DNA of 42,045 bases from a bacterium CG_4_9_14_3_um_filter_65_15. Its GTDB lineage: Bacteria > Krumholzibacteriota > Krumholzibacteriia > LZORAL124-64-63. Every line of letters begins with the position of its first letter. Within the stretch, counting starts at the first letter, position 1. A program made the translations under genes and the position numbers. Where the stretch lies: contig PFVX01000079.1 in NCBI GenBank assembly GCA_002790835.1, positions 132,495-174,539 of the forward strand. The letters run 5' to 3'. Of this stretch, positions 17,057-20,517 are shown piece by piece. The notes beneath the pieces were generated by a model. It saw only the letters and a program-made list of their open reading frames with translations. It was not told the DNA's origin and searched no databases.

Positions 17057-17085
17057 ATCCTAACATGTTGGTGAAGCAGGGCCAA
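17057..17085 (-). promoter_or_regulatory. Possible promoter for the spermidine-synthase-like gene
   Basis: On the minus strand TTGGCC (17080-17085) and TAGGAT (17057-17062) are 17 bases apart, each matching 4 of 6 consensus positions. It lies between the end of the ArsC-like selenoprotein gene and the ATG at 17013. Confidence 0.4.
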
Positions 17086-17094
17086 GTGGTCGAG

Positions 17095-17133
17095 CCGAGG
17101 AGTGGCCTAGCCGAGGAGTGGCCTAGCCGAGGA
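17095..17133. repeat. 16-base tandem repeat (about 2.4 copies) at end of selenoprotein gene
   Basis: The unit CCGAGGAGTGGCCTAG occurs at 17095-17110 and 17111-17126 and starts again at 17127-17133. The minus-strand selenoprotein stop codon (17123-17125) lies within the second copy, so the last codons of the gene are part of the repeat. Confidence 0.9.
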
Positions 17134-17470
17134 ATTCCTCGTAGATCTCCGCGTTGAATCCCACGAGCACGGTCTTGCCGCGCACCACCGTCGGCGCGCG
17201 CAGATTGCCGGTGGTGCCGAGCATGGCTGCCAGCATCTCGTCCTCTGAAGGCTTGTCCTGCTTGCGATCGAACGTCGTGACCTTCTTGCCCTTCATCACG
17301 ACGATCCTGCTGGCGCTCTTGATGAGCTCGCGGGCTTTTTCGGCGCCGAGCTTCTTGGCGGCGCTCGTCTCTTCCTTCACGTCCACGTCATGCTGCGCAA
17401 GGAACCCCTGCGACCGGGTGCAGCTCGTTCAGCCCTTGCGGTGGTAGTACCAGTCGGCGCACTTGGCCAT
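17123..17470 (-). CDS. ArsC/Spx-like thiol-redox selenoprotein (in-frame TGA read as Sec)
   Basis: The gene reads through an in-frame TGA (17429-17431) to give 115 residues. It starts at ATG 17470 after a strong GAGGAGA site and encodes MAKCADWYYHRKG-U-TSC, then SQGFLAQHDVDVKEE. From Thr15 on, the protein is a thioredoxin-fold ArsC/Spx-type sequence (KGKKVTTFDRKQDKPSEDEMLAAMLG, then NLRAPTVVRGKTVLVGFN). In the family this place holds a Cys of a CxxC redox motif, so TGA at exactly that codon, giving UxxC, is the expected mark of selenocysteine. A possible SECIS hairpin overlaps it (17402-17430). A gene caller that stops at TGA would start at GTG 17386 and lose the active site. Pseudogene or sequencing error (TGC to TGA) is the alternative. 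Partner and reductant unknown. It follows thyX by 27 bases. Confidence 0.8.
17402..17430 (-). other. Candidate bacterial SECIS hairpin overlapping the TGA
   Basis: Read on the minus strand, GAAC (17427-17430, overlapping the last two bases of the TGA) pairs with GUUC (17402-17405). CUGC (17420-17423) pairs with GCAG (17408-17411) across an internal loop of 3 and 2 bases. The 8-base apical loop carries GGU. Bacterial SECIS elements sit just 3' of the UGA with a G/U in the apical loop, so the place fits. The stems are short and the loop is nearer the UGA than in E. coli fdhF, so this is tentative. Confidence 0.4.
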
Positions 17471-17497
17471 GGTGGGATCTCCTCGAGTAGCGGGAAA

Positions 17498-18451
17498 TCA
17501 GCCCGTCTCTCCCCACGGGGCGGACAGGTTGAGCGTCTGTAACTTGGTTTCGAATTCCCGGCGTTCGCGGTTGCGCAACAAGCCGCCGCGCTTGGACGGC
17601 TTCAGCCAGCCGGCCTCGCGGGCCACGGCCAGGGCCTGCTCATGGTCGCCGGCTCCCATGGCGGCCAGAACCGCCGCCTCGATGCGCGAAAAGCCCAAGG
17701 CGCCCATCCGATAATCCTCGAAGGCTTCCCAGGTCAACGGCACCCAGCGGGCGACGATCTCCCGACCGATCACCGCGGCGTAGGCGCGGATCTCCTGCTG
17801 GGCGTGTGCGTCCATGCGCAGGGCCAGGAAGTGCAGCAGGTTGTGCAGATCCATCTTCCAGTAGGCTTCGGTGTAGGTGCACAGGGGCAAGTCCTTGCGG
17901 GCCTGTTCGCGGGCGATCCCGGCTTCCAGGCGGCGGTTGTAGACGGCCCGGGCCTGGTCCTGCAATTCCGCTTCGGCCCGCGAAAGTTCGGCGCCGAGAT
18001 CCGCAGAGGCCGTGCCGTCGCTGCCCTGCTTGTTGTCCACCGCCTGCATGCGCCACTGGTCGGGCGCGGTGCGTTGGGCGGCGTCGATGGCCACGGAGTA
18101 GCGCGTGCTCGTCTCGTTCACCGAGGCGGTCCGGTGTCGGATCCACTGCCGCCACGCGTCCATGGGCACGCGCACGTGGAGCTTCAACGAGCACATCTCG
18201 AAGGGTGTGGTGTGGTGGTTGCGCAGCAGGTAGCGGATCAGGCCGCGGTCGTCACTGACCTTTTTCGTGCCGGCCCCATAGCTGACGCGGGCGGCCTGCA
18301 CCACCGCGGCGTCGTCGCCCATGTAATCCACCACGCGCACCAGGCCGTCGTCCAGCACCGGAAAGGGCTTGCCGAGGATCTGATCCAGGGCGGGGACGTG
18401 GGGGCGGGCAAGGGCTTCTGCCTGAGGTGTCTGCTGCGGCTGCATTTCCAC
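17498..18451 (-). CDS. thyX: FAD-dependent thymidylate synthase ThyX
   Basis: The protein has 317 residues. ThyX makes dTMP from dUMP using methylene-tetrahydrofolate and FADH2/NADPH. The family signature RHRxxSxNExSxRY is present as RHRTASVNETSTRY (residues 105-118). LRNHHTTPFEMCSLKLHVRVP and YTEAYWKMDLHNLLHFLALRMD, with the substrate-binding Arg/His pattern, are also there. The C-terminus has about 60 extra residues (from roughly 255) beyond the core. The GTG start at 18451 is favoured because AGGAG lies 5 bases before it; ATG 18445 is the alternative. That AGGAG is inside the last codons of hutU, whose stop is 2 bases upstream, so translation is probably coupled. Organisms with ThyX usually lack ThyA; this cannot be checked here. 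Confidence 0.95.
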   Translation of the reverse strand: MEMQPQQTPQAEALARPHVPALDQILGKPFPVLDDGLVRVVDYMGDDAAVVQAARVSYGAGTKKVSDDRGLIRYLLRNHHTTPFEMCSLKLHVRVPMDAWRQWIRHRTASVNETSTRYSVAIDAAQRTAPDQWRMQAVDNKQGSDGTASADLGAELSRAEAELQDQARAVYNRRLEAGIAREQARKDLPLCTYTEAYWKMDLHNLLHFLALRMDAHAQQEIRAYAAVIGREIVARWVPLTWEAFEDYRMGALGFSRIEAAVLAAMGAGDHEQALAVAREAGWLKPSKRGGLLRNRERREFETKLQTLNLSAPWGETG

Positions 18452-18453
18452 GG

Positions 18454-20517
<2,064 letters not shown>

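Follow-up and report, generated by a model that had tools for sequence, protein, structure and literature searches.

A probable NF041106-family selenoprotein gene with an in-frame TGA downstream of thyX and hutU in a Krumholzibacteriota genome

An open frame interrupted by one TGA

The locus raises the question of whether a TGA lying early in an otherwise open frame ends translation or is read as selenocysteine (Sec). Within the window, that is, the whole stretch of 42,045 nucleotides that was analysed, the frame is bounded on the minus strand by an ATG start at 17468-17470 and a TAG stop at 17123-17125, and the TGA is its sole internal stop (Table 1). It is followed by Thr-Ser-Cys, giving the motif U14-T-S-C17, and the product with the TGA read as Sec would be MAKCADWYYHRKG-U-TSC-TRSQGFL...NLRAPTVVRGKTVLVGFNAEIYEEFLG, of 115 residues. 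On rechecking, the coordinates, start codon, GAGGAGA stretch, position of the TGA, T-S-C sequence and open frame of the original prediction were all confirmed. So was its expectation that a standard annotation would begin at GTG 17386 and lose the active site: the only frame listed under translation table 11 is 17386..17123, of 87 aa, and the gene, now confirmed, would be cut short at its active site. Comparison of sequences indicates, with a probability of about 0.93, that the product is an NF041106-family selenoprotein with an ArsC/Spx-type thioredoxin fold, in whose synthesis the UGA at 17429-17431 is decoded as Sec.

Table 1. Features of the locus, in window coordinates
Feature	Position	Strand	Remarks
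ArsC/Spx-like selenoprotein gene, NF041106 family (predicted)	17123..17470	-	115 aa including one Sec
In-frame TGA, predicted Sec codon 14	17429..17431	-	Occupies the site of C12 of E. coli ArsC, the first active-site Cys
bSECIS-type hairpin CGCAGGG-GUU-CCUUGCG	17396..17412	-	Stem of 7 bp; apical loop of 3 nt, the first of them G; 23 nt past the UGA
Shine-Dalgarno-like GAGGAGA	17478..17484	-	Upstream of ATG 17470; seen in sequence
thyX, FAD-dependent thymidylate synthase	17498..18451	-	Co-directional with the selenoprotein gene, 27 nt upstream of it
hutU, urocanate hydratase	18454..20517	-	Same strand, upstream of thyX

Third-position GC is 1.00 in the 13 codons ahead of the TGA and 0.88 past it, compared with 0.87-0.91 in thyX and hutU. 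A scan of the window for read-through frames returned a single frame with a believable motif, which was this gene, and purine-rich stretches of the GGAG type also lie upstream of the start in many relatives. The end of the gene is spanned by a 16-bp tandem repeat (3.1 copies, window 17085-17133) whose unit includes the TAG stop.

Conservation of the TGA, selenium machinery and the downstream hairpin

The protein is present in 20 of the 80 phylum genomes searched, the host genome included, with exactly one TGA in each match. Nineteen of these sequences, the window gene and 18 relatives, make up the family set; the twentieth match, L030, was left out as a different ArsC-related selenoprotein. 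Alignment of the homologues at codon 14 bears out the original prediction, as this codon is TGA in 19/19 sequences, is never TGC or TGT, and no other stop occurs in any of them. Given that the same codon is TGA throughout and that the protein is conserved on both sides of it, the TGA of the window gene is far beyond chance. A Cys form of the NF041106 family was not seen among the 80 phylum genomes searched and the test of Cys/Sec exchange rests, for this reason, on ArsC and Spx homologues, in which Sec14 aligns with C12 of E. coli ArsC and with the first Cys of Spx. The proposed UxxC redox centre holds for the window protein but not for the family as a whole: the third residue past Sec is Cys in 13 sequences, Ser in five and Ala in one (n=19). 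The pattern of conservation indicates that Sec, unlike the second Cys, is essential to the family. With 6/19 members having lost this Cys while retaining Sec, the idea that activity resides in Sec alone can be put to the test.

Conceivably, the TGA is a genuine stop codon: the locus would be a pseudogene, or the sequence in error, and any real product would be the 87-aa protein from GTG 17386. Translation table 11 yields exactly that frame, and the host genome is a draft assembly of 94 contigs (95% complete). However, the probability of this is negligible: an identical TGA is common to all the relatives with no frameshift, in none of them is it replaced by a Cys codon, and the residues that flank it are conserved, with W7, Y8, Y9, R11 and G13 nearly invariant. 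The value of 1.00 for third-position GC ahead of the TGA likewise speaks against a true stop, and the pseudogene or sequencing error was rejected on the shared TGA.

Decoding of the UGA as Sec further depends on the host, and the search for selA, selB, selC and selD that the prediction called for found all four: selA, selB and selD each score over cut-off, and a tRNA-Sec with anticodon UCA was confirmed by two programs. The host selD (L040, C8:31606-32523, minus strand) has a single in-frame TGA of its own where the active site usually lies ('...SAGUAAK'), with a hairpin downstream, and the genome thus holds a second, textbook selenoprotein gene; no UXX-star selenoprotein was found in it. Across the phylum, selA is present in 78/80 genomes and tRNA-Sec scores over cut-off in 72/80, and a missing Sec machinery was therefore rejected as the cause of the patchy distribution of the gene. 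A single scan of genome contigs returned only one relative, the nearest named relative found being a Candidatus Krumholzibacteriia MAG, and scans of plasmids and of viral contigs returned none.

Downstream of the TGA, the hairpin occupies bases 20-36, in a numbering whose base 1 is the U of UGA, and has an energy of -8.5 to -9.0 kcal/mol. It lies within all the published limits for a bSECIS (loop of 3-9 nt, G within the first two positions, stem of 4-16 bp, 16-37 nt from the UGA, MFE <= -7.5; PMC13188914). However, the same generic limits also admit hairpins after 101 of the 972 TGA triplets (~10%) of this GC-rich window, and shuffled sequences fold as well as the 48 nt taken from the UGA onwards (z 0.18). 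The hairpin of one sequence was accordingly rejected as proof of a SECIS and the weight placed on comparative evidence. The closing pair covaries, being G-C in 11 and A-U in four distinct sequences by way of a second-position plus a third-position change, and 92% of stem pair cells are formed, against 37-67% for slid versions of the stem. Codons +6 to +11 (xCG, CAG, GGG or GAG, CTT, GCG) are frozen at nearly all synonymous sites in the 17 close relatives, with CTT and GCG each found in 17/17 against expected pair identities of 0.36 and 0.43 respectively, whereas most codons outside this stretch vary as codon usage predicts. In two distant relatives and in L030 the stem sequences differ, yet each of the three retains a 7-8 bp hairpin that has GUU at its loop; the two distant relatives have a 7-bp hairpin whose register is off by one base, which leaves it scored as mostly unpaired in the stem alignment. 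A search of Rfam gave no match near the gene.

The check for a bacterial SECIS thus found a hairpin that agrees with the published model and is constrained across the relatives and, together with the Sec machinery and the invariant TGA, this upholds the predicted selenoprotein. The family gains a set of 19 sequences from a single phylum, and their SECIS is well constrained. The ribosome would decode the UGA through SelB, Sec-tRNA-Sec and the hairpin within the coding sequence. From these comparisons we infer the actual insertion of Sec, as well as the redox activity and substrate considered below.

Fold family and probable activity

The original assignment to an ArsC/Spx-like thioredoxin fold is well supported by profiles and structure matches. 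The protein matches NCBIfam NF041106, 'ArsC family (seleno)protein', with 128.2 bits against a cut-off of 85, over profile positions 2-107 of 107, and Pfam ArsC with 31.4 bits against 24. The NCBIfam cut-offs for Spx (31.2 vs 123 bits) and Spx/MgsR (40.6 vs 75 bits) are missed. An AlphaFold model (pLDDT 90.6) finds its best solved-structure matches in Spx and ArsC-type proteins (7f75 and 1z3e for Spx), with TM-scores of only ~0.54, which indicates a structural match of superfamily grade, and the closest solved relatives by sequence are Spx proteins.

The family and the principle were already known and the window gene is an added member, the earlier reader having been unaware that the family was described. 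NF041106 is catalogued as 'Arsenate reductase-like protein, UxxC' in the 2026 selenoproteome catalogue (PMC13188914), whose reference 61 appears, by the order of its reference list, to be the Global Ocean Sampling study (PMC2398784). For 'Arsenate reductase 2, UxxC', which is probably the same family as NF041106, the latter lists 42 selenoproteins and 238 homologues with Cys. The window protein resembles NF041106 (ArsC_rel_Se_1) in its full-length match, its Sec site and its UxxC; the family, in contrast, is catalogued as UxxC, and the Krumholzibacteriota-type members have Ser or Ala for the Cys in 6/19 cases.

Sec14 would be positioned at the N-terminus of the first helix, the site of the catalytic Cys in ArsC and Spx, where it would most likely serve as the attacking selenol in a glutaredoxin-like thiol/disulfide reduction. 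Cys17 of the window protein could resolve the selenenylsulfide, and in the relatives with Ser or Ala at this site resolution would need an external thiol. Fold and motif together make a selenol-based thiol/disulfide reductase the probable activity, ahead of both arsenate reduction and Spx-like regulation.

With the UGA decoded as Sec, the protein might instead be a genuine arsenate reductase, as its score with Pfam ArsC and the catalogue name of its family would suggest, and catalytic C12 of E. coli ArsC (TIGR00014) does align with Sec14. In E. coli ArsC, Arg residues bind arsenate. The window protein is ~25 residues shorter than that enzyme and does not conserve R60, R94 or R107: the R60 site is Met, the loop of R107 is absent and the R94 site, before the cis-Pro, is Ala in 19/19 family sequences (LRAP). 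Given the lack of conservation of these Arg residues, a thiol/disulfide reductase is likelier than an arsenate reductase, and the TIGR00014 type, with its catalytic Cys and Arg60, Arg94 and Arg107, was rejected. An arsenate reductase is unlikely also in view of the closest solved relatives, which are Spx proteins, and of the scanned window genes, among which no arsenic gene was noticed. This proximity to Spx raises the possibility that the protein, again with Sec inserted, is a transcription factor that senses redox state and binds RNA polymerase alpha. Spx of B. subtilis and other Firmicutes (TIGR01617) shares the ArsC-type thioredoxin fold, has a CxxC that aligns with the UxxC, and provides the best match by both sequence and fold. 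Such a role is nevertheless as improbable as arsenate reduction, given that the protein falls under both Spx-type cut-offs and that catalytic Sec is commoner in enzymes than in sensors. The protein also differs from Spx in carrying Sec instead of Cys, and in having Ala where Spx has the Arg that precedes the cis-Pro.

Gene neighbourhood and related loci

The hutU-thyX cluster had been regarded as unusual company for a redox selenoprotein. The cluster is present, but it is not peculiar to this genome: within ~4 kb of the gene, thyX occurs in 12/18 relatives and hutU in 11/18. By comparison of these loci, the linkage is conserved in the lineage and a functional tie is only a candidate. It is a speculative and rather doubtful proposal that the family of this lineage is a monoselenol reductase with no need for the second Cys and, at the same time, that a genuine functional relationship underlies its conserved position after hutU-thyX. 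If true, the protein might, for example, protect or reduce a partner involved in flavin-dependent thymidylate synthesis.

The neighbourhood varies among the relatives. In some of them thyX and the selenoprotein gene are separated by a laccase-domain gene (PF02578), and in the relative L058 two rubrerythrin genes are found upstream instead. In one genus the selenoprotein gene is immediately preceded, on the opposite strand, by a gene for an ARPP-1 domain protein (PF20208; L044:1468-2418, minus strand), and a similar frame is seen in L048 and L050. The ThyX of the relative G049 (L050:965-2518, plus strand) contains an in-frame insertion of ~176 aa, a ThyX mini-intein, which matches Pfam Intein_splicing with 40.7 bits against a cut-off of 35.8. 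The match left out of the family set (L030/L061, relative G004; L030:1501-1812) is a second ArsC-related selenoprotein, of Spx/MgsR type (TIGR01617, 86.3 bits); its in-frame TGA lies within CKST-U-STC and is followed by a hairpin of 8 bp.
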